Position numbers and translations under genes: made by a program. Shown here one piece after another: positions 17,336-28,233 of a DNA stretch of 35,236 nucleotides. Below the pieces are notes generated by a model that did no database searches, was not told the DNA's origin, and worked only from the letters and a program-made list of their open reading frames with translations. Positions within the stretch are counted from its first letter, which is position 1. Every line of letters starts with the position of its first letter. Origin of the DNA: Lachnospiraceae bacterium. Lineage in GTDB: Bacteria; Bacillota; Clostridia; Lachnospirales; Lachnospiraceae. Location of the stretch: assembly GCA_017938315.1 (NCBI GenBank), contig JAGBBV010000002.1:1-35236 (forward strand). The letters run 5' to 3'.

Positions 17336-17371
17336 TTGTATGACATAATAAATTAAGCACAATATATGAGG
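17315..17371. promoter_or_regulatory. 57-bp hyphenated palindrome over promoter and ribosome binding site
   Basis: CCTCATATATAGTGCT (17315-17330) is repeated inverted as AGCACAATATATGAGG (17356-17371) with 15 of 16 positions matching; a further five pairs (17333-17337 with 17350-17354) lie inside. The left arm lies in the spacer and touches the -10 box; the right arm contains the GAGG ribosome binding site of the first transport gene. The arm centres are 41 bases apart, about four helical turns. It could be a double operator, or, in a transcript starting further upstream, a hairpin hiding the ribosome binding site. Confidence 0.5.
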
Positions 17372-17377
17372 TTTTTT

Positions 17378-19756
17378 ATGAAAAAGAGGATGAAAAAAAT
17401 TATAACATTTATACTGGCGGGAGCAATGATTGTATCCCTTGCCGGTTGCGGTGGTGGCGGTGCAGACAAGCCACAGGAGATCAAAAAAGATTTTTACTAT
17501 GTACCTGAGAATAGGAAATTGGATATTAACTCAAATTACATAGAAGGCGTAGTTGCAAAAGATGATCAGATTTATATGTATGGTAATTCATGGGATGAAA
17601 AGAGCGGTATCAGCGTAGGCACATTATATTGCTATGATTTAGTGAATGATACCATAAAAGAAATACCCTTTAAAACAGACGATAATTCATCTGTTTATAA
17701 GATGTTATTAAATAAAGCCGGTAATCTTATGATGATTTTGCAAAGATATGAAGAGGTGATTTCTGAGGAAAAAATGATAGATGTGGAAGCTTCTGAAGAA
17801 TCGGATGAAATTGTCTATGCACAGGAAGCAGCCGGTGAAGGAGTAGTAGCTGAAACTACCATTGGCGGAGATGATCTTTATACAGAATCAGTAGAGTTTA
17901 ATCATTACATAGAACTGATTGAAGTTTCAACGGCAGATGGATCTGTAATGAATAGTGTAGATATTACAGCTGTTTTTGGGAACAACCAAGATTTCTATCC
18001 TCAATATGTTGCTACGGATGCCAATGAAAATATTTATATCAGTGATGGAAATTCCTGTATTTATGTGATAGATGCAGGGGGAAATAAACTGGCAGAAATT
18101 ACATTAGATGATTGGGTGGACGGGATGTTTTCTTCGAAAGAAGGAGACATTTATATAAAGATGTGGGGTGCAGAAGGCGAGGAAATCCGGCCCCTTGATC
18201 TTAACAGCAAAAAAATTGGTAATGCTATAAGTGCAAAGGGACTTTTAGAGCGTAGCAATCATTATAATCAGAGATACTATGAAGGAATGGAAAGCAGCCT
18301 TTTAGTGAGTGATTCAACAGGCCTGTTTACATATGATTTTACGACAGATGTTGCAAATGACATGTTTGATTGGCTTGATGTGGACATTAACAGTGATGAT
18401 GTAAGTGAGGCAGGTCAGATGTCCGATGGAAGATATTGGGCGCTTCTACATGATTATATGGGTGATGAAGCGGAATATTATATAGCAATCATGAAAAAAA
18501 CACCGGCATCAGAAGTGGTAATCAAGGAAGAACTTGTATACGGGACAATATGGACAAGTCAGGAGATACGTAAGAATATCATTGATTTTAATAAAACAAG
18601 TGATAAATACCGTATTACGGTAAAAGAATATCAGACAGATGATTATACAAGCGGAATTGCTCAGTTTAACAATGATCTTGCCAGCGGTAATTGTCCGGAT
18701 ATTATTAATTTGAGTAACCTAGACTTTGCAAGATATGCGAGCAAAGGTGTATTTGAAGACTTATATCCATATATGGAAAAAGATGGAATTCAAAAGGAAG
18801 ATTATGTGGAAAATGTACTGACAGCATATGAAATGAGTGGAAAGTTGTATGGTATCATACCACAGTTTTATATTCATTCTGCAGCAGTGAAATCTTCTAT
18901 AGCAGGGGACAGGACCGGATGGACGGTAAAGGAAATGCTTGAAGTTGCCAAGGAGAGCGGTATTGAAAATATATTCCAATATGGTAGCCGCATGAGTGTA
19001 TTCTATTACTGTATTTATAATAATATGGATGAATATATTGACTGGGAAACAGGAGAGTGCTTCTTTAACGGAGAAGACTTTATCAATGTTTTGGAATTTG
19101 CAGCACAGTTTCCTGAAGAGCCGGATTATTCGGATGAAGAAAGTATATCATCCAAGATACATGAAAACAAAGTGTTACTGTTAGAAACATCCGTAAGTTC
19201 TGTGCAGGAATATCAGATGATGAGTGGAATGTTTGGTGAAGAAATTACCTTTATCGGATACCCTAACAGTGAAGGAAAAGGGAATTTAATCCAGCCCACA
19301 AATGAGTGTATTGCCATAGCAGCGAAATCAGAAAAGAAAGAAGCGGCGTGGGAGTTTGTTAAAGGCTTCATGTCCGATGAATACCAGGATGGGCTAGTTA
19401 GTGAACATGCAAACTGGGGATTTCCGCTTAAGAAGTCCGCACTGGAAAAGCAGTTTGAAATGGACATGACACCAAGTTATTATGAAGACATGGATGGAAA
19501 ACAGGTAGAAAGCCCTAAGACATCATGGGGATATGATGATTTCCAGATTGACATTTATGCAGCCAAAAAGGAGGAAGTGGATGCAGTAAGGAAAGTGATT
19601 GCATCTGCTGAAAGGACGGCTACCTCCATTAACGAAGAGCTGGCTACTATCATTACAGAAGAGACGGATGCATATTTTAAAGGGCAAAAGTCTGCGAAGG
19701 AAACAGCCGATATTATACAAAACAGAATTCAAATTTATGTAAATGAAAATTCATAA
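17378..19756 (+). CDS. Substrate-binding lipoprotein of an ABC importer, with propeller-like N-terminal half
   Basis: Extracellular binding protein, 792 residues from the ATG at 17378; I prefer it to the one at 17366 because GAGG (17368-17371) lies six bases upstream and the signal peptide starts cleanly as MKKRMKKI. Lipobox LAGC puts the lipid-modified cysteine at residue 24. Residues about 40-375 are rich in short beta blades (ANENIYISDGN, KEGDIYIKMWG, SDGRYWALLHD) resembling a beta-propeller. Residues about 380-760 are a type I sugar-family binding domain with PDIINLSN, KGVFEDLYPYME, GKLYGIIPQF and AAWEFVKGF. About 800 residues is nearly twice a normal sugar-binding protein. The C-terminus (AYFKGQKSAKETADIIQNR) closely matches the second binding protein downstream. 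It precedes the two permeases and presumably delivers to them; substrate unknown. Confidence 0.85.
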   Translation: MKKRMKKIITFILAGAMIVSLAGCGGGGADKPQEIKKDFYYVPENRKLDINSNYIEGVVAKDDQIYMYGNSWDEKSGISVGTLYCYDLVNDTIKEIPFKTDDNSSVYKMLLNKAGNLMMILQRYEEVISEEKMIDVEASEESDEIVYAQEAAGEGVVAETTIGGDDLYTESVEFNHYIELIEVSTADGSVMNSVDITAVFGNNQDFYPQYVATDANENIYISDGNSCIYVIDAGGNKLAEITLDDWVDGMFSSKEGDIYIKMWGAEGEEIRPLDLNSKKIGNAISAKGLLERSNHYNQRYYEGMESSLLVSDSTGLFTYDFTTDVANDMFDWLDVDINSDDVSEAGQMSDGRYWALLHDYMGDEAEYYIAIMKKTPASEVVIKEELVYGTIWTSQEIRKNIIDFNKTSDKYRITVKEYQTDDYTSGIAQFNNDLASGNCPDIINLSNLDFARYASKGVFEDLYPYMEKDGIQKEDYVENVLTAYEMSGKLYGIIPQFYIHSAAVKSSIAGDRTGWTVKEMLEVAKESGIENIFQYGSRMSVFYYCIYNNMDEYIDWETGECFFNGEDFINVLEFAAQFPEEPDYSDEESISSKIHENKVLLLETSVSSVQEYQMMSGMFGEEITFIGYPNSEGKGNLIQPTNECIAIAAKSEKKEAAWEFVKGFMSDEYQDGLVSEHANWGFPLKKSALEKQFEMDMTPSYYEDMDGKQVESPKTSWGYDDFQIDIYAAKKEEVDAVRKVIASAERTATSINEELATIITEETDAYFKGQKSAKETADIIQNRIQIYVNENS

Positions 19757-19792
19757 ATAAGGTGGTAAAGAACCGGGAAAGAGAGTTTGAAA

Positions 19793-20725
19793 ATGTGCTC
19801 ATTTAAAAGAAAAAATTTAAATAAGCATAAAGGCGGAAAAAGGGTAAAGACAACAGTATCCAAACAAGGCAAAAGAGGGAAAGTAATCTCATGGGGATTT
19901 CTTTCCCCAAGCCTTTTGGGCGTACTGTTATTTTTCGTGTTGCCTTTTTTTGTGGTAATCTATTATTCCATGGTTGATAATCCAATCAACAATCAATTCG
20001 TGTTCTTTGAAAATTTTGTCCGGGTTTTTAATAACATGGCATTTAAGCAAGCAGCATATAATACCTTCCGTTTTTCCCTTGTGGCAGTACCCCTTGCTGT
20101 GCTACTGTCTCTTTTGCTGGCCATGATGCTTGACAGTAAGATTCCTTTTAGGAGCCAGTTCCGCACTTTCTTTTTAAGCCCTATGATGGTCCCTATTGCA
20201 TCAGTTGTGCTGATTTGGCAGGTGCTGTTTCATTACAATGGTATTGTGAATGATGCCCTCAGTATTTTGGGAACCGGAAAAACAGATTGGCTGAAATCAG
20301 CCCATGCCCAGATAGTGATAGTGATTTTGTTTTTGTGGAAGAACTTAGGATACAATATGATTCTTTTTATGGCAGCATTATCCAGTATTCCTAAAGATAT
20401 TCTGGATGTGGCAGTGCTTGAAAGCGCAAGTGCAAGGCAGATTTTCTGGCATATCAAGGTCAGATATATTTCTTCCACAATTTTATTTGTAACGATAATG
20501 TCATTAATTAATTCCTTTAAGGTTTTTAGAGAAATCTACCTGTTAACAGGGAATTATCCATATGATACAATATACATGATGCAACATTTTATGAATAATG
20601 CATTTACGCAGCTGGATTATCAGAAATTATCAGCGGCAGCAATTATGATGTCGATTGTGATGGTAATAATAATCGGTATCCTGTTCCTTGTCGAGAATTA
20701 TTTCGGAAAGGATATGGAAGAATGA
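19793..20725 (+). CDS. Sugar-type ABC permease 1 (MalF/UgpA-like)
   Basis: Integral membrane protein with six hydrophobic segments; the first is SPSLLGVLLFFVLPFFVVIYY and the last ends GILFLVENYFG. I chose ATG 19793 (310 residues) because GAAAGAGAG ends seven bases upstream; the in-frame TTG at 19787 is only one base from it. The cytoplasmic coupling loop reads LDVAVLESASARQIFWHIKVRYIS, divergent from the usual EAAxxDGAxxxQxFxxIxLP: Glu-Ser replaces Asp-Gly and the proline is missing. The permease 2 start overlaps its stop (ATGA), so the two are made together and should pair as a heterodimer. No ATPase gene is in the operon, so a shared MsmK/UgpC-type ATPase elsewhere is needed. Confidence 0.88.
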   Translation: MCSFKRKNLNKHKGGKRVKTTVSKQGKRGKVISWGFLSPSLLGVLLFFVLPFFVVIYYSMVDNPINNQFVFFENFVRVFNNMAFKQAAYNTFRFSLVAVPLAVLLSLLLAMMLDSKIPFRSQFRTFFLSPMMVPIASVVLIWQVLFHYNGIVNDALSILGTGKTDWLKSAHAQIVIVILFLWKNLGYNMILFMAALSSIPKDILDVAVLESASARQIFWHIKVRYISSTILFVTIMSLINSFKVFREIYLLTGNYPYDTIYMMQHFMNNAFTQLDYQKLSAAAIMMSIVMVIIIGILFLVENYFGKDMEE

Positions 20726-21648
20726 AGACAGATACAGCAATTTATATAAAAAGAACAAAGAAAAAACGTCGCAGACAGTTTGTGAAAGTGCTGATAGCAA
20801 CCATGATAGCAGCTATATTTGCCACACTGTTTTTAATGCCGATTATTCTAACGATTACCAACTCTTTTATGTCAGCTTCAGAAATATCGGCTAATTACGG
20901 GCAGGTATTTGCTACCACCGATACCGGAGGGAAAACGTTCATAGCAGAAAGAGTAAACTTAAAATTTATTCCTGATATGGTATCTTTCAGCCAGTATATT
21001 ACGGTCTTACTTAAGAGTCCGGATTATTTGTTTAAATTTTGGAATTCTGTGATATTGGTGGTGCCTATTGTGGCATTTCAAATATTTGTTGCAGCAGGTG
21101 CATCTTATGGTTTTACAAGATGTCAGGGCAGAATCAAAGAAATGATTTTTTTTATTTATATTATTTTGATGCTGATGCCTTATCAGGTAACCCTTGTACC
21201 TAATTATTTGGTATCGGATTGGCTTCATATATTAGACACAAGATGGGCCATATGGCTTCCGGGTATATTTTCACCATTTGCAGTGTTTTTGCTTACAAAA
21301 TATATGAGACGTATTCCCACAGCGATGATAGAGGCTGCCCAAATAGACGGTGCAGGTGAATGGCAAATTTTTAAGAGTATTTGTATGCCCCTTTGTAAAA
21401 GTGCCATTACATCTATTGCGATTTTAATCTTTATTGATTATTGGAATATGGTGGAACAACCGCTAATTTTGATGTCAGATGTGGAGATGCATCCTCTTTC
21501 TGTTTTTTTATCTAAGATTAACGAAGGAGAAGTGGGACTTGCATTTGCAGTTGCAACCATCTATATGGTGCCTCCACTTTTAATATTTTTATACGGAGAA
21601 GATTACCTGGTGGAGGGAATTACTTATCAGGGCGGAATAAAAGGTTAG
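20722..21648 (+). CDS. Sugar-type ABC permease 2 (MalG/UgpE-like)
   Basis: Integral membrane protein of 308 residues with six hydrophobic segments; a soluble loop of about 60 residues follows the first. The coupling loop EAAQIDGAGEWQIFKSICMPLCKSAI is the canonical carbohydrate-permease EAA motif, so an MsmK-type ATPase can be expected to dock here. It begins within the stop of permease 1 and ends 14 bases before the adaptor gene. Substrate cannot be told from sequence; family membership suggests an oligosaccharide or other polyol-like solute. Confidence 0.93.
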   Translation: MKTDTAIYIKRTKKKRRRQFVKVLIATMIAAIFATLFLMPIILTITNSFMSASEISANYGQVFATTDTGGKTFIAERVNLKFIPDMVSFSQYITVLLKSPDYLFKFWNSVILVVPIVAFQIFVAAGASYGFTRCQGRIKEMIFFIYIILMLMPYQVTLVPNYLVSDWLHILDTRWAIWLPGIFSPFAVFLLTKYMRRIPTAMIEAAQIDGAGEWQIFKSICMPLCKSAITSIAILIFIDYWNMVEQPLILMSDVEMHPLSVFLSKINEGEVGLAFAVATIYMVPPLLIFLYGEDYLVEGITYQGGIKG

Positions 21649-21662
21649 GAAAGGAACATACG

Positions 21663-23621
21663 ATGATGAATGAATTATCTTCAAAGAGAAGGGAATGGGT
21701 AAAAAATGCGGCAATTATCTTTTTGTCCGTTATGTTGGTGCTTACGTTCTTTTCTAATACAATTATGAATTATTCTTTGCCGGAAGTAGCTACCGCTTAT
21801 GTGCAGCCGGGAACCATTACTGAAAAGGTCCGCGGAACCGGTAATGTGGAAGCTACTGACCCTTATAATGTCATGACTACGGAGTCCCGTGTGATAGCAA
21901 GTGTAGCAGTCACACAAGGTGATTTTGTGGAAAAGGACCAGGTGATTTATTATCTGGAAGAACAAGAGAGCGAAGAACTGGAAAATGCAAAAGAGGAATT
22001 GGAAGAATTAGAACTGGCATACATGAAAGGTTTGTTTGGCGGTGAAGTTTCTGCGGATGTCATTAACAAGGTGGCAAGCGGAAACGTCAGCAGTTTTGCA
22101 ACCCTGCAGGCAAACGTGACAGACATGCAGACACGCCTTCAGGCTGCAGAGGACCGCGTAAAGGAATGTCAGGATGCATTAAATGCACTTAATTTACAAA
22201 GTTCTATCAGCACCAATGATGCCAGTGTTAGTACAATCCCCAATGAACTGGAAGCGGCGGATGCCACAACAGATTTAGCAAGTGCAAAAGAGTCCTTTGA
22301 AAATAGAAAAGCAGAAAGAATTGCAGAACTGAATGCTGAAATTACTGAGATAAAGAAGCAGATAGCGGATTTGGAAGTTTTGATTGCTAATGGGGAAGGA
22401 ACGATTGGAGACAGTACAGCATCCGATACCACAGATAGTTTGCAGAATGCAATTGACAATACAGATTTAACGACAAAACTGAATACGTTAAATACTAGCG
22501 TATCGGCAACGTTCACATCTCCGGAAGCAGCTTATGAATGGAGTAAAAATGTAGACTGGTCAAGCCTATCAGATGACGGTCAATTGGCTCTTCAAAATTT
22601 TTTGGCCGCATATGCTGATTATCAGAGCAATAAAGAAGCATTAAGCCAAGTAACAGGCATTGTAAGTAACCAGGAAAGCTTGAATAACAAAAAGGCGCAA
22701 TTGGAAAAATTCGAAAGTAAACTGGCAGAAGTAAGTGCCATCACTGTATCTTCAAGTGACAGTGTACAGGACGCACAGGAACGGCTGGATACAGCCAATC
22801 AGAATATTAAAGAAATCACAAGTGCCAATAAGCAATCCTCAGTTGCTTATCAGAATAAGATTTTAAATGCGGAAGCGGCACTGAAAAATGCACAGGCTGT
22901 TTATGACTTGTTAAAAGAAGAACAGGCAACCATGGCTGCAGATATCAATGCGGAGCTGGATTTGTCCAAAACCAATAAAGATATTGCAGAAAAGAAAGAG
23001 GAAATTGCAAAACTGGAAGAAAAAGCCATGGGAGCGAGCATTAAAGCCCCGGTGAGCGGTACGGTAACATCCCTTGCCTATGTGGCAGGAGAAACTACCA
23101 AGCCGGAACAGGCTGCAGCAGTGATCCAGATAGAAGGAAAAGGCTTTACGGTAAGTTTTGCAGTCACCAACGAACAGGCAAAAAAAGTAAAAGTCGGTGA
23201 TATGGCGGAACTGCAAAATGCTTGGTATTATGATGATGTCCAGGCGATTCTTTCAGCAGTAAAACCGGACCCCGAGAGTGCAGGGCAGAAAAAGTTATTG
23301 GTATTTGATGTGACCGGAAGCAGCATTACAGCAGGTCAGACACTGAATTTATCCGTAGGACAAAGAAGCGCAGAATATGAACTTGTGGTGCCAAACAGTG
23401 CAATCAGAGAAGACAGTAACGGTAAGTTTATTTTGATAGTGGAGTCTAAGAGTAGTCCACTGGGTAACCGTTATATGGCTACGAGAGTGGATGTAGAGGT
23501 ACAGGCATCTGATGATAACAATACTGCAATTTCGGCAGGATTATATGGCTATGAATATGTAATAACCACATCCACCAAGCCCATAGAGGCAGGTATGCAG
23601 GTGAGATTAAACGAAACATAA
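21663..23621 (+). CDS. HlyD/MacA-type membrane fusion (adaptor) protein
   Basis: Protein of 652 residues with one N-terminal membrane helix (about 15-35), then VRGTGNVEATDPYNV and VTQGDFVEKDQVIYYLEEQ, the first half of a lipoyl domain. A very long coiled-coil region (about 98-460, many EELEELEL and EIAKLEEK stretches) follows, then the second lipoyl half SIKAPVSGTVTSLAYVAGE and a beta-barrel/membrane-proximal part. Such adaptors normally work with MacB-type ABC permeases. The coiled coil is unusually long for an organism without an outer membrane and contains Ser/Thr/Asp-rich breaks. The gene lies between sugar permeases and a MacB-like fusion gene, 14 and 22 bases away, so it belongs to the operon. 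Ribosome binding site AAGGA is seven bases from the ATG. Confidence 0.85.
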   Translation: MMNELSSKRREWVKNAAIIFLSVMLVLTFFSNTIMNYSLPEVATAYVQPGTITEKVRGTGNVEATDPYNVMTTESRVIASVAVTQGDFVEKDQVIYYLEEQESEELENAKEELEELELAYMKGLFGGEVSADVINKVASGNVSSFATLQANVTDMQTRLQAAEDRVKECQDALNALNLQSSISTNDASVSTIPNELEAADATTDLASAKESFENRKAERIAELNAEITEIKKQIADLEVLIANGEGTIGDSTASDTTDSLQNAIDNTDLTTKLNTLNTSVSATFTSPEAAYEWSKNVDWSSLSDDGQLALQNFLAAYADYQSNKEALSQVTGIVSNQESLNNKKAQLEKFESKLAEVSAITVSSSDSVQDAQERLDTANQNIKEITSANKQSSVAYQNKILNAEAALKNAQAVYDLLKEEQATMAADINAELDLSKTNKDIAEKKEEIAKLEEKAMGASIKAPVSGTVTSLAYVAGETTKPEQAAAVIQIEGKGFTVSFAVTNEQAKKVKVGDMAELQNAWYYDDVQAILSAVKPDPESAGQKKLLVFDVTGSSITAGQTLNLSVGQRSAEYELVVPNSAIREDSNGKFILIVESKSSPLGNRYMATRVDVEVQASDDNNTAISAGLYGYEYVITTSTKPIEAGMQVRLNET

Positions 23622-23643
23622 CAGAAAGGATGGTAAAGTCATA

Positions 23644-26600
23644 GTGGCAAAAATAATTGATTTTTGGAATCATTTATCCATAAGACAAAAAGTATTGTCA
23701 CTGATGACAATCATCTGTCTGATTATTTTTATCATAATCACTTCCATCAGTAATCATATGATTGCAGGATTAAGTGACCAGCAGGCAGCTAAACGCTGGG
23801 ATAAAGATAACGGCTCCTCACAGGTAAGCGTTTTCGTAGCCGGTGATGTAAGCATTGACGAACTTAAAATTAAAAATTTTCAGATGCAGCTTGAAGCAGC
23901 CTTAAAGGAAGCAGCAATCACAGCAGACAATGCCAATGGAAGACTGTATGTTGATGCCTACAGTTCACAAGGGGAGGTTACTATAAACGGCTCCCAATCA
24001 AATATGGATACAAAAGCAATGGGAATTGGCGGAGACTTCTTTTTATTTCATCCGGTGAAATTGGTTGATGGCAGTTACTTTTCAGGAAATGATTTGATGA
24101 AGGATTTTATTCTCCTTGATGAAGAGGCCGCATGGAGGCTTTTTGGTTCAAACGATATTGCAGGTATGAATGTTACCATCAGTGGAATTCCCCATTATAT
24201 AGCCGGAGTATATGAAAAAGAAGAAGGACGTTTTCAGGAAGCTGCCGGATTAAATGAAAGCGTTGTGTTTTTATCCCACGAAAGTCTGTCGCAATATGGA
24301 AAAGGTGACAGTATCAGTACATACGAACTGATAGCTCCCAATCCTATTAAAAATTTTGTTTATAATACTGTAAAAGAGAAATTCGGACTGCAAGAAAATG
24401 AAATGATAGTAGTAGAGAATTCCTCCAGATATTCATGGGAATCAATCATACCGGTACTGTTTGACTTCGGCATCCGGTCTATGCAAAATACAAAAGTGAG
24501 GTTTCCTTATTGGGAAAATATTGCAAGGGGATATGAGGATGTGAGGGCATTGCTTTTCCTGTTTCAAATGATTTTCCTGATGATTCCAATGGTTATTATT
24601 TGTGCGTTTATCATGGTTAAAGGGAGAAAGTTTATGCGTTCTGCAGGAGAATTTATAAAGAAAAAAATAAGTGTAATGAGTTTCGTTTTATTTTGTGCTA
24701 TTCTTTTAAGCGGATGTGCTACAGATAAAGGGACAGAAACGTCAGCGGCATCATCCAAGGATTATGTATATCGTGTGGAAGAACTGCAGTTAGAGGAAAG
24801 TGGAGAGCAGCAAGGAAAAAGTTTGCTAAAAAAAGGTGACAAGTTATATATGTATAGTTATAACTGGGGAAATGGGGAACCGGATGCACCCTGGATAGAC
24901 TTTTGGGCCTTAAATGCAGACGGAACGGTAAAAGAAAAGACAAAGTTCCCTATTGGTGAAAATGGAAGTTTAAATTCTTTGTGCCCTGATGGAAAAGGAA
25001 ACATTTATGCTGTTAAATATATTTATCCTATGGAACCGGATGAAAACGGAATGTACATAGAGACATATTTCTTGCAGAAAATGACGGAGCAGGGAGATGT
25101 GCTATTTAGTGTTGAATTAAATTCCATGCCGGAATTAGAAGTGATTAATTCGCAGGATTATTTTTATACCGGAGATATGATTTATTCGGATGGTTTTCTA
25201 TATATCAATATTATGGATCAATACGTAAAGTTTGATGAGAATGGTAATTTTGTGAAAATTTTAGAAACCGGCGGAGAAAACGGACTGCAAGGTGGCACAC
25301 TGTTTGCGTTGGAAAATGGGAAAACGGTTGTACTTACCTATGAAGATACAGGTTGCTATGTTGCCTATGTTGATTTGGAAAATGGCGTAACAGAAAATAA
25401 AACAAAATTGCCGGGAACTTCCTATGAATATTCGGTATATGCAGGATATGGATATGATTTATATTTGGTAAATTCTTACGGAGTATATGGATACAATGTT
25501 GGAGATGAAGACAAAACCCAGATTATGAATTATATTGATTCAGATATGGGCATTTATAGTGTGTTTAATGTTGTACCCATTAATGATACCTCCTTTTTAG
25601 CGACCTATGATGATATGGAATCGGGAGATATTTTAGTTGGAAAATTTTCTAAAGTAAATCCGGAAGATGTAAAAGAGAAGGTTAACCTGACATTAGCGTG
25701 TGCAGGCCTTAATTGGGACGTAAGAACAGCTATTGTTAAATTTAATAAGAGTAATGAACAGTATCGTATCAGGATAGAGGATTATTCTTCTTTATATGGG
25801 TCAGAAACAGACTATATGGCAGGAATTAACCGGTTGAATGCAGACATTGTGGCAGGGAAAGTGCCGGATATTTTGTTAATCGATTCGGGAATGCCGGTTG
25901 ACAGCTATATAGCAAAAGGCTTGTTTGAGGATTTAAAGCCATATCTTGAAGCAGATATAGAAATTGACTATAACAGCTTTATGCCCAATATTATAGAGGC
26001 ATATTCCGTAGATGGGAAATTGTATCAATTAATTCCTTCCTTTATGATTAGAACTTTGGTCGCTAAAGCATCCGATGTAGGAGAGGAAAAGGGATGGACA
26101 ATTGATGAGGCAAAGCAGGTTCTTGAGAAAAAACCGGAGGGAACAGAATTTTTGACAAATACAACAAGAGATAATGTACTCAATAATTGTATTGCAACAG
26201 GGGATGAATTTATTGATTGGAAAACAGGTAAGTGTAATTTTGATTCCAAGGAATTTATTTCCCTTCTTGAATTTGTAAAAATTTTTCCGGAAACATATGA
26301 TGAGTCTGTCTATAATGAAGACTATTGGATGAATTACGAGTATATGTGGAGGGAAGGAACGGTACTTTGCCAGGAAGTATATTTATACGATTTCCGCAAT
26401 TATAATTATGTTGAAAAGGGAACTTTTGGTGAGAAAATTACCATGATAGGTTATCCTATGGCAGAGGGAGACGGTGCTTGTATTGTGCCTGACATGCAGC
26501 TTGCCATGTCAGCAAAGTCAAAGAATAAAGACGGTGCTTATGAATTTTTGAGATATTTTTTAACAGATGAATATCAAAATGAAATTAGTTTTGGTCTGCC

Positions 26601-26925
26601 CCTTAGTATGAAGCGCCTGGATGCTATGGCAGAAGAAGCAACGAAAGTACGTACTTATGAAGACGAAAATGGAAATCAAATAGAATCGCCGGAATATTTT
26701 TATATGAATGATATAGAAATAGAAATTCCTCCGATGACAGCAGATGAAGTGAAGAAATTCAAGGAAAATATATGTAGTGTTACCGATGTATATTCCTATA
26801 ATGAAAACTTGAATAAAATTATTGGAGAAGAGACTGCAGCATATTTTGCGGGTCAGAAGAGTGCACAGGATGTTGCTGCCATCATTCAAAGCAGGGTTCA
26901 AATTTATGTAAATGAAAACAGATAA
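23644..26925 (+). CDS. Fusion: truncated MacB/FtsX-type permease plus substrate-binding lipoprotein
   Basis: One open frame of 1093 residues from GTG 23644. Residues 17-40 are a membrane helix. Residues 41-300 are a MacB-type periplasmic core: DFFLFHPVKLVDGSYFSGND, then EEAAWRLFGSNDIAGMNVTISG and IPHYIAGVYE. Residues 302-326 are a second helix ending in basic KGRKF. The usual third and fourth helices of an FtsX-type permease are missing. Instead, residues 331-358 are a lipoprotein signal peptide (MRSAGEFIKKKISVMSF, lipobox LSGC, Cys358), followed by a binding protein paralogous to that at 17378: propeller-like region about 372-675 and binding domain about 680-1093 (KGLFEDLKPYLE, GKLYQLIPSF, FIDWKTGKC). 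The topology works: both soluble parts end up outside. Signal peptidase II could cut it in two. It may have arisen by an in-frame deletion joining two genes. Confidence 0.85.
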   Translation: MAKIIDFWNHLSIRQKVLSLMTIICLIIFIIITSISNHMIAGLSDQQAAKRWDKDNGSSQVSVFVAGDVSIDELKIKNFQMQLEAALKEAAITADNANGRLYVDAYSSQGEVTINGSQSNMDTKAMGIGGDFFLFHPVKLVDGSYFSGNDLMKDFILLDEEAAWRLFGSNDIAGMNVTISGIPHYIAGVYEKEEGRFQEAAGLNESVVFLSHESLSQYGKGDSISTYELIAPNPIKNFVYNTVKEKFGLQENEMIVVENSSRYSWESIIPVLFDFGIRSMQNTKVRFPYWENIARGYEDVRALLFLFQMIFLMIPMVIICAFIMVKGRKFMRSAGEFIKKKISVMSFVLFCAILLSGCATDKGTETSAASSKDYVYRVEELQLEESGEQQGKSLLKKGDKLYMYSYNWGNGEPDAPWIDFWALNADGTVKEKTKFPIGENGSLNSLCPDGKGNIYAVKYIYPMEPDENGMYIETYFLQKMTEQGDVLFSVELNSMPELEVINSQDYFYTGDMIYSDGFLYINIMDQYVKFDENGNFVKILETGGENGLQGGTLFALENGKTVVLTYEDTGCYVAYVDLENGVTENKTKLPGTSYEYSVYAGYGYDLYLVNSYGVYGYNVGDEDKTQIMNYIDSDMGIYSVFNVVPINDTSFLATYDDMESGDILVGKFSKVNPEDVKEKVNLTLACAGLNWDVRTAIVKFNKSNEQYRIRIEDYSSLYGSETDYMAGINRLNADIVAGKVPDILLIDSGMPVDSYIAKGLFEDLKPYLEADIEIDYNSFMPNIIEAYSVDGKLYQLIPSFMIRTLVAKASDVGEEKGWTIDEAKQVLEKKPEGTEFLTNTTRDNVLNNCIATGDEFIDWKTGKCNFDSKEFISLLEFVKIFPETYDESVYNEDYWMNYEYMWREGTVLCQEVYLYDFRNYNYVEKGTFGEKITMIGYPMAEGDGACIVPDMQLAMSAKSKNKDGAYEFLRYFLTDEYQNEISFGLPLSMKRLDAMAEEATKVRTYEDENGNQIESPEYFYMNDIEIEIPPMTADEVKKFKENICSVTDVYSYNENLNKIIGEETAAYFAGQKSAQDVAAIIQSRVQIYVNENR
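24621..24636 (+). promoter_or_regulatory. Internal ribosome binding site and ATG for the lipoprotein half of the fusion
   Basis: AGGGAGAAAG (24621-24630) is followed after three bases by an in-frame ATG (24634-24636, residue 331). Translation from here would give a 763-residue lipoprotein with a normal signal peptide and lipobox cysteine at its residue 28. The site reads like the original start of a separate binding-protein gene kept inside the fusion. Confidence 0.55.
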
Positions 26926-26961
26926 ATTGTTTCACCCTTTTAGGGGAACGGGGGAATACAG

Positions 26962-28233
26962 ATGAACAAGAAACAGGGAAAGGCGAGTTTATATAGTAAG
27001 TTATTGATTATGACGCTGGTTCCGTTATTTTTGCTGGCAGTCGTAATTATGTCATTTAGTGCGCATCGCTTTGCAGAAGCCTTACATGAAGAAGTGAAAA
27101 AAGGATTGCAAGACTTAAACGCTACTTTTTTGACAATGTACGATTATTTATATCCCGGAGAATATACTGCTGTTGAGATGGAGAATGAGATATATATGCT
27201 CAAAGGAGAACATCAGATTAACGGGGATTTTTCCTTGATTGACAGAATGAAAGAAAGCACAGGCGTAGATATTACATTATTCTATCAGGATGCAAGGGTG
27301 ATTACTACGTTACGTGACCAGAGCGGAAACAGGATTATCGGCACCATGGTCAATTCTGTTGTGAAGAGGGATGTAATAGAAAAAGAAATAGCAACCTTTT
27401 ATCCCAGTGTAAATATTAACGGAACTGAGTATTTTGCATATTATGAGCCAATCAAAAATTCTGACGGAAGTATGATAGGTATGTTGTTTGTCGGTAAGCC
27501 GGCGAAGGAAGTATATCAAAGTGTAAGATCATCCGTCATGCCAATTATTGTAATTGGTCTCATTGCAATGATGTTAGCGGGATTTGTTACGCTTCGTTTT
27601 ACCAAAGAATTAATCAGTGGAATCAAGAAGATAGAGCTTTTTTTGAAAAAAGTTGCAAAGGGCAATTTACGGGATGAACTTGATTATGAGGTTTTAAAGA
27701 GAGATGACGAACTGGGGGAAATGGGAAAGAATGCAGTTCATATGCAAAAAGCGTTGATAGAACAGGTAGAAAAGGATGCCCTTACCGGTTTATATAACAG
27801 AAGGTATAGTGAAAAGAAGATGGAGGAGATCTATAAAAAGGGAATTCCCTTTTCACTTGTACTCTGTGATATAGATTTTTTTAAAAAAGTAAATGATACT
27901 TATGGTCATGAGTGTGGAGACCTTGTTCTGCAAGAAGTATCTGCTATTCTAAAAAGAACCATGAGAGGAAAAGGATATGCTGCCAGATGGGGTGGCGAAG
28001 AGTTCCTCCTTGTTTTTGAAGACTATAAAAAAGAACAGGCTATAATGGTACTTCAAGGTATCATGGAAGATGTAAGAAATATTAGAATTGAATATAAAGA
28101 AGAGATTGTTACAGTCACCATGACATTTGGTGTTTGTGAGGGAACATCAGAAGATTTGGATGTTTTATTAAAAGAAGCTGATGATAAATTGTATTATGGT
28201 AAGGAAAACGGAAGAAACCAAATTGTAGAATAG
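26962..28233 (+). CDS. Membrane diguanylate cyclase with Cache sensor, HAMP and GGDEF domains
   Basis: Protein of 423 residues that should make cyclic di-GMP. Helix 13-33; extracellular Cache-type domain about 35-190 (single Cache_3 style: DRMKESTGVDITLFYQDARVITT, then YFAYYEPIKNSDGSMIGMLFVG); helix 193-213; HAMP about 214-268; GGDEF domain 270-423. The active-site motif is GGEEF (344-348), the accepted variant; Asp303 and the LCDIDFFKKVNDTYGH stretch supply metal and substrate contacts. The residues before it (GYAARW) do not form an RxxD inhibitory site, so simple product inhibition is unlikely. It starts 36 bases after the fusion gene behind GGGGGAA, with no promoter or terminator between, so it is probably in the transport operon and may report on the same extracellular ligand. 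Confidence 0.92.
   Translation: MNKKQGKASLYSKLLIMTLVPLFLLAVVIMSFSAHRFAEALHEEVKKGLQDLNATFLTMYDYLYPGEYTAVEMENEIYMLKGEHQINGDFSLIDRMKESTGVDITLFYQDARVITTLRDQSGNRIIGTMVNSVVKRDVIEKEIATFYPSVNINGTEYFAYYEPIKNSDGSMIGMLFVGKPAKEVYQSVRSSVMPIIVIGLIAMMLAGFVTLRFTKELISGIKKIELFLKKVAKGNLRDELDYEVLKRDDELGEMGKNAVHMQKALIEQVEKDALTGLYNRRYSEKKMEEIYKKGIPFSLVLCDIDFFKKVNDTYGHECGDLVLQEVSAILKRTMRGKGYAARWGGEEFLLVFEDYKKEQAIMVLQGIMEDVRNIRIEYKEEIVTVTMTFGVCEGTSEDLDVLLKEADDKLYYGKENGRNQIVE

Follow-up and report, generated by a model that had tools for sequence, protein, structure and literature searches.

Introduction

Some bacterial genes carry, within a single frame, an internal Shine-Dalgarno sequence and an in-frame internal start, from which a shorter C-terminal product is made. 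The FbcH cytochrome b/c1 precursor of Bradyrhizobium is a polyprotein that is cut by signal peptidase, and in the importer OpuA the binding domain is fused to the permease. MacB-type permeases are described as having four helices (PMC5985334), with the core domain located between TM1 and TM2 and a coupling helix between TM2 and TM3.

We analysed a 35,236-nucleotide stretch of DNA from a Lachnospiraceae bacterium (assembly GCA_017938315.1, contig JAGBBV010000002.1; hereafter the window), in which a two-helix MacB-core protein is joined in frame to a substrate-binding lipoprotein, SBP2. In contrast to genes with in-frame internal starts, the shorter product here corresponds to an ordinary separate gene in relatives, and the overlap appears to have arisen by stop loss. 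As in FbcH, an exported protein with an internal signal of its own comes after a membrane protein in the same frame; however, this signal is of the lipoprotein type (signal peptidase II) rather than a substrate of signal peptidase I, the frame also contains a proposed internal start, and cleavage is plausible. The N-terminal part resembles MacB-family (Type VII) ABC permeases such as MacB and YknZ (PMC5985334) in having a periplasmic core fold after TM1 and an adjacent gene for an HlyD/MacA-type adaptor, but it contains TM1 and TM2 only, without TM3, TM4, the coupling helix or an ATPase domain, and the operon showed no gene for an ATPase. The GlnPQ and OpuA importers (PMC8025302, PMC11065425) are comparable in that a binding protein is covalently joined to a membrane component; the partner here is a MacB-like core protein and not MalF or MalG, which are separate genes, and the joint carries both an entire lipobox signal and a proposed internal start.

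Results

The frame opens with a GTG codon at 23644 and continues without interruption to a stop codon that ends at 26925 (Table 1). Pfam analysis of the 1093-aa protein identified MacB_PCD at residues 23-217 (E 2.5e-9), SBP_bac_8 at 697-981 (2.4e-16) and SBP_bac_1 at 726-978 (2.5e-9). Hydropathy analysis detected hydrophobic segments at 17-33, 309-325 and 342-358, the third of which ends in LSGC with Cys358. The SBP2 part has the sequence and fold of a cluster-1 sugar-binding protein (SBP_bac_1/8), with a Foldseek match to 7x0o_A at 5.2e-17. At E 0.01, the fused protein, SBP1 and a separate SBP2 were all without a match among the NCBIfam models; a separate core protein matched two models, both far below their cut-offs. 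The initial annotation had described one uninterrupted frame in which a helix, a MacB-type core, a second helix, a lipoprotein signal and a binding protein follow one another; the frame was confirmed at its full length and recurs in two other species, and Pfam and hydropathy analysis agree with this order. Ahead of the sugar-binding fold lies a long beta-rich stretch within SBP2 (24769-25653, residues about 376-670 of the long chain) that is propeller-like by its strand string.

Table 1. Features of the fused frame and its operon, in positions of the window
Feature	Positions	Strand	Remarks
SBP1, the first of the operon's lipoprotein binding proteins	17366..19756	+	32% identical to the SBP2 part
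MalF-type permease	19787..20725	+	
MalG-type permease	20722..21648	+	
HlyD/MacA-type adaptor, one N-terminal helix	21663..23621	+	NCBIfam matches below cut-offs
Uninterrupted frame encoding a two-helix MacB-core protein and, fused to it, the SBP2 lipoprotein	23644..26925	+	1093 aa; same frame in two congeners
N-terminal part, residues 1-329: TM1 17-33, MacB-like core (Pfam 23-217), TM2 309-325	23644..24630	+	Profile of 31 unfused congeners stops at residue 329
Shine-Dalgarno-like GGGAGA, codons 327-328 (Gly-Arg), 6 nt upstream of codon 331	24622..24627	+	
Proposed internal SBP2 start ATG (codon 331)	24634..24636	+	ATG in G309, TTG in G310
Signal sequence of the lipoprotein type, MRSAGEFIKKKISVMSFVLFCAILLSG; the long chain's third hydrophobic segment	24634..24714	+	Profile of 28 unfused SBP2 begins (its position 2) at residue 339
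Lipobox LSGC, Cys358	24706..24717	+	L355, G357 and C358 invariant in three fused species
Mature SBP2, with a beta-rich region at its N-terminal end (about 376-670) ahead of the cluster-1 sugar-binding-protein fold	24715..26922	+	
Membrane GGDEF protein after SBP2	26962..28233	+	Relative downstream in 18/80 named loci

Strong relatives of the N-terminal part are encoded by separate frames that have a short tail past the second helix; most span 340-440 residues, and a few reach as many as 559 through longer tails. Hydropathy analysis of 60 core sequences (set A3, comprising the window and 59 loci; ten of 80 loci were missed by the motif filter and left out) detected exactly two segments in 57, three in the two from fused species, in which the third is the lipoprotein signal, and one in the remaining sequence. 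Among unfused core proteins of the genus, 31 of 32 had two hydrophobic segments and one had a single segment. Because 57 of the 60 core sequences show exactly two segments, the two-helix form is the normal state of this family. The initial annotation had termed this part a permease half; this term, which suggests that something was cut off, is not supported, since two helices are usual in the family. A truncated four-helix permease was ruled out, the relatives being complete two-helix proteins. With respect to membership in the MacB permease family, the N-terminal part has the periplasmic core fold between TM1 and TM2, and a MacA/HlyD-type adaptor partner gene, as in tripartite or YknXYZ-like systems, is present. 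Four transmembrane helices are absent from the family of the N-terminal part, and no fused or adjacent ATPase was detected at the core loci, as far as their contigs reach.

The distribution of the fused frame was examined in 37 genomes of the genus, including the window's own; one genome had no match (G306) and one was split across contig ends (G321), leaving 35. The fused frame was present in three (G000, which is the window's own genome, G309 and G310), and a stop follows the core domain in the other 32; among these, SBP2 runs off the contig in G304 and is broken in G323. In the latter (L097/L084), SBP2 forms two frames of 288 and 563 aa and is apparently broken or misassembled. The fused proteins of G309 (1090 aa) and G310 (1078 aa) share 62% and 60% identity with that of the window, and their loci correspond to MAG contigs from goat colon (JAFQQI010000107.1) and goat rectum (JAFSGE010000020.1), respectively. 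The search for homologues of the same domain order that had been proposed with the initial annotation thus succeeded in two other species of the genus, and since these share the frame, neither of the refuting outcomes named there, separate genes in all relatives or sequence missing near 24600, is borne out. Seven genomes with open frames of 1141-1226 aa (G300, G301, G312, G314, G316, G322 and G329) were considered as further fusions and rejected, as a stop separates two ORFs in each. Overlapping samples of 299, 397 and 392 genomes (the window's own included) yielded no match with a fused frame from outside the genus; among the matches listed, no frame apart from the window's exceeded 685 aa, and the frame of that length (G700) matches in two pieces. 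A first contig scan with the full-length protein as query gave no match.

The fused trio was monophyletic, with support of 1.0, 0.995 and 0.993 in the joint, core and SBP2 trees, respectively. These trees contained 34 rows (3 fused, 28 unfused and 3 outgroups); G302, G304, G323 and G325, in which the script found no SBP2 start, were omitted. One ancestral fusion event, retained afterwards, is the simplest account of this distribution. The frame is best read as the product of an old merger, in frame, between two neighbouring genes of the operon, and not as a freshly fused or truncated permease.

The junction was mapped with profiles of the unfused proteins. The profile of 31 unfused core proteins (G315, which is cut, was excluded) aligned to the fused proteins as far as residues 329, 334 and 319, and positions 2, 2 and 3 of the profile of 28 unfused SBP2 proteins fell on fused residues 339, 339 and 331. 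Judged by these ends, the fusion removed the stop, the start codon of SBP2 and the core C-terminal tail, which in many congeners reads ..KDKWEHF or similar, and apparently little else. In G313, an unfused sister species, the core gene ends 2 nt ahead of the SBP2 ATG, an arrangement that likely represents the intermediate state before fusion. In unfused congeners (e.g. L064, L087 and L088), the frequent core C-terminal KWEHF is often encoded by TGGGAGCATTTT, which is Shine-Dalgarno-like and lies upstream of SBP2; many loci additionally have a Shine-Dalgarno nearer to SBP2.

There is no clear sign of selection on the open frame itself. The neutral chance that no stop would re-arise in five free codons was estimated at 20-37%, and survival of the frame alone is therefore no proof that the long product is needed. 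This estimate, together with the finding that G311, G313, G318 and G323 likewise have a short version of the lost tail, would suit a neutral accident in which the stop was lost without effect, SBP2 is made from its own start and the joining of the chains has no role. However, the conserved core protein has no stop behind it and is obtainable only within the long chain, which therefore cannot be simply waste or discarded. We consider an accident of this kind unlikely.

All three fused species encode the Lys-Gly-Arg after the second helix as AAR-GGG-AGA, followed by two codons and then by ATG, ATG or TTG. This internal Shine-Dalgarno and start codon are conserved in 3 of 3 fused species, with TTG in one (G310, codon 322). 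Energies of the Shine-Dalgarno duplex with the anti-Shine-Dalgarno were -8.3, -8.1 and -8.3 kcal/mol, and by this measure the internal start ranked 2nd of 72, 1st of 80 and 2nd of 93 in-frame start codons in the three fused frames. For comparison, the SBP2 starts of 24 of 28 unfused congeners scored -7.3 to -10.9, and three of the four weaker ones look wrongly picked; script-picked starts are doubtful for G264, G330 and G331 in this comparison and, among the named loci, for L099, L117, L118 and L152, which are absent from the SBP2 set A4. Codon usage was compared across the trio, whose fourfold sites differ by 0.58-0.61. Only 11 of 52 conserved glycines keep one codon, and the Shine-Dalgarno glycine alone is GGG in all three; 4 of 16 conserved arginines keep one codon, all AGA, the Shine-Dalgarno arginine among them. 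Because both codons would be kept in all three species by chance in about 5% of cases, codon conservation is supportive but modest evidence for an internal start, and the high rank of the site in three species is the stronger point. The internal Shine-Dalgarno may be partly incidental, since a TGGAGA string (Trp-Arg) is already present in some unfused relatives. Local mRNA structure at the internal start was unusually weak only in G310, in which 0.4% of codons were as weak or weaker, and was ordinary in G000 (38%) and G309 (40%).

On balance, we lean towards an in-frame overlap that arose by stop loss in one clade of gut Lachnospiraceae and gives two products: the complete core-SBP2 chain and, initiated at codon 331, SBP2 on its own as a prolipoprotein. 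The fusion-only reading of the initial annotation was right about the frame but overlooked the internal Shine-Dalgarno and start that stand just before the signal peptide in all three species. As such a start offers a free lipoprotein without a cut, the arrangement would be less exotic than that reading implied.

The lipoboxes of the fused trio are LSGC, LTGC and LCGC. Because the lipobox residues Leu, Gly and Cys are invariant amid a hydrophobic core most of which varies, the alignment favours lipidation at Cys358, as first proposed from the window alone; with three sequences, this invariance is modest evidence. The internal lipobox is supported both by hydropathy and by the alignment of the three fused species, and the arrangement derived from hydropathy agrees with the earlier view that the topology is sound: with the core outside, the positive loop inside and the signal helix directed outward, Cys358 would be presented correctly. 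The conserved lipobox suggests that the long chain could also be cut at Cys358, and its cleavage is plausible. It would be the sole source of SBP2 if only the long chain were made and Lgt and LspA cut it at Cys358, so that a core protein with three helices and the released lipoprotein arose in a fixed 1:1 ratio. Such a polyprotein would be consistent with the permissive topology, the invariant lipobox, the presence of lgt (1 match) and lspA (2 matches) in the window's genome, and the finding that the position aligned with the unfused SBP2 start codon is now ATA, CTG or GTA in the fused species. However, the internal Shine-Dalgarno and start common to all three would then be superfluous, and we doubt that the long chain is the only product.

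The operon was surveyed in 80 named loci recovered with the core-domain profile, which represent the best 80 of 202 relatives. Among the visible loci of these best 80 of 202, an HlyD relative lay no more than 400 nt upstream of the core gene in 78 of 79 and about 500 nt upstream in the remaining one, MalF and MalG lay upstream in 72 of 72 and an SBP in 66 of 71; an SBP adjoined or was fused to the core gene in 72 of 75 (70 separate, 2 fused), and SBP2 was the next gene in 70 of 73 visible unfused loci. Three loci, L131, L132 and L139 (Konateibacter, Lachnotalea and Galacturonibacter), keep SBP1-MalFG-HlyD-core and have no SBP2 after the core gene. A scan of the operon strand for Walker A and signature motifs, from the first recognised operon gene to the gene after the core, detected no ABC ATPase in the 80 loci, some of which are cut by contig ends. 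MalK-like OB-domain proteins are encoded outside the operon in the window's genome, with one match over the cut-off and one below, and the MalFG importer presumably borrows an ATPase encoded elsewhere. The conserved Lachnospiraceae operon SBP1-MalF-MalG-HlyD-core-SBP2 (17366-28233 with the GGDEF gene) looks like an undescribed hybrid of a sugar importer and a MacA/MacB-like scaffold.

Discussion

Comparison with the unfused species shows that, in the ancestor of the three fused species, the end of a two-helix MacB-core gene was lost together with its stop codon, so that the frame runs into the SBP2 gene. The ribosome-binding site and start codon of SBP2 are now located inside the frame, at codon 331, where they may still be used, and ribosomes would probably make two products: the full-length core-SBP2 chain and the free SBP2 prolipoprotein. 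The latter would be lipidated and cut at Cys358, as expected of its unfused relatives. The long chain appears to have the right topology for the same Lgt/LspA processing; where cut, it would yield a core protein with a third helix and the same lipoprotein, and an uncut fraction would constitute a tethered binding protein. The most likely role of the core protein is to hold SBP2, or to position it, beside the HlyD-type adaptor and the MalFG importer.

Tethering could instead be permanent, with the signal helix serving as a third transmembrane anchor and the core and SBP2 forming one molecule beside the importer. The chain is continuous in three species, and a functional link between the proteins is plausible given that most of the visible loci have SBP2 after the core gene. 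However, a plain anchor would let the lipobox Cys, Gly and Leu drift, whereas all three are invariant, and there is no sign of a need for an uncut product; a permanent tether is thus quite improbable. As for an assembly error or private deletion, all three fused genomes are fragmented (40, about 120 and about 60 contigs) and two are titled MAG, but a junction common to three species, with proteins 60-62% identical and on distinct contigs, makes chance or misassembly a very unlikely source of the frame, to the point that we give it virtually no weight.

The wider operon is the more novel lead, as an importer combined with an ATPase-less MacA/MacB-like pair. A literature search, with subscription journals mostly outside its reach, found no paper on the core-SBP2 pairing or its operon. 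Speculatively, a CUT1-type sugar importer with two lipoproteins, MalFG and a borrowed ATPase might be joined to an ATPase-less HlyD adaptor and a two-helix MacB core that span the thick wall as an extracellular scaffold; the scaffold protein and its binding protein would, in one clade, be born as a single precursor cut at Cys358 by the lipoprotein machinery, with the internal start adding free binding protein. We regard this full picture as rather unlikely.

The fused frame offers a clean test case for two questions: whether a signal located within a multi-helix chain can be processed by the lipoprotein machinery, and how stop loss can be tolerated when the downstream gene keeps its own start. 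By its existence it also hints that SBP2 and the two-helix MacB-core protein act jointly; their operon is widespread in Lachnospiraceae.
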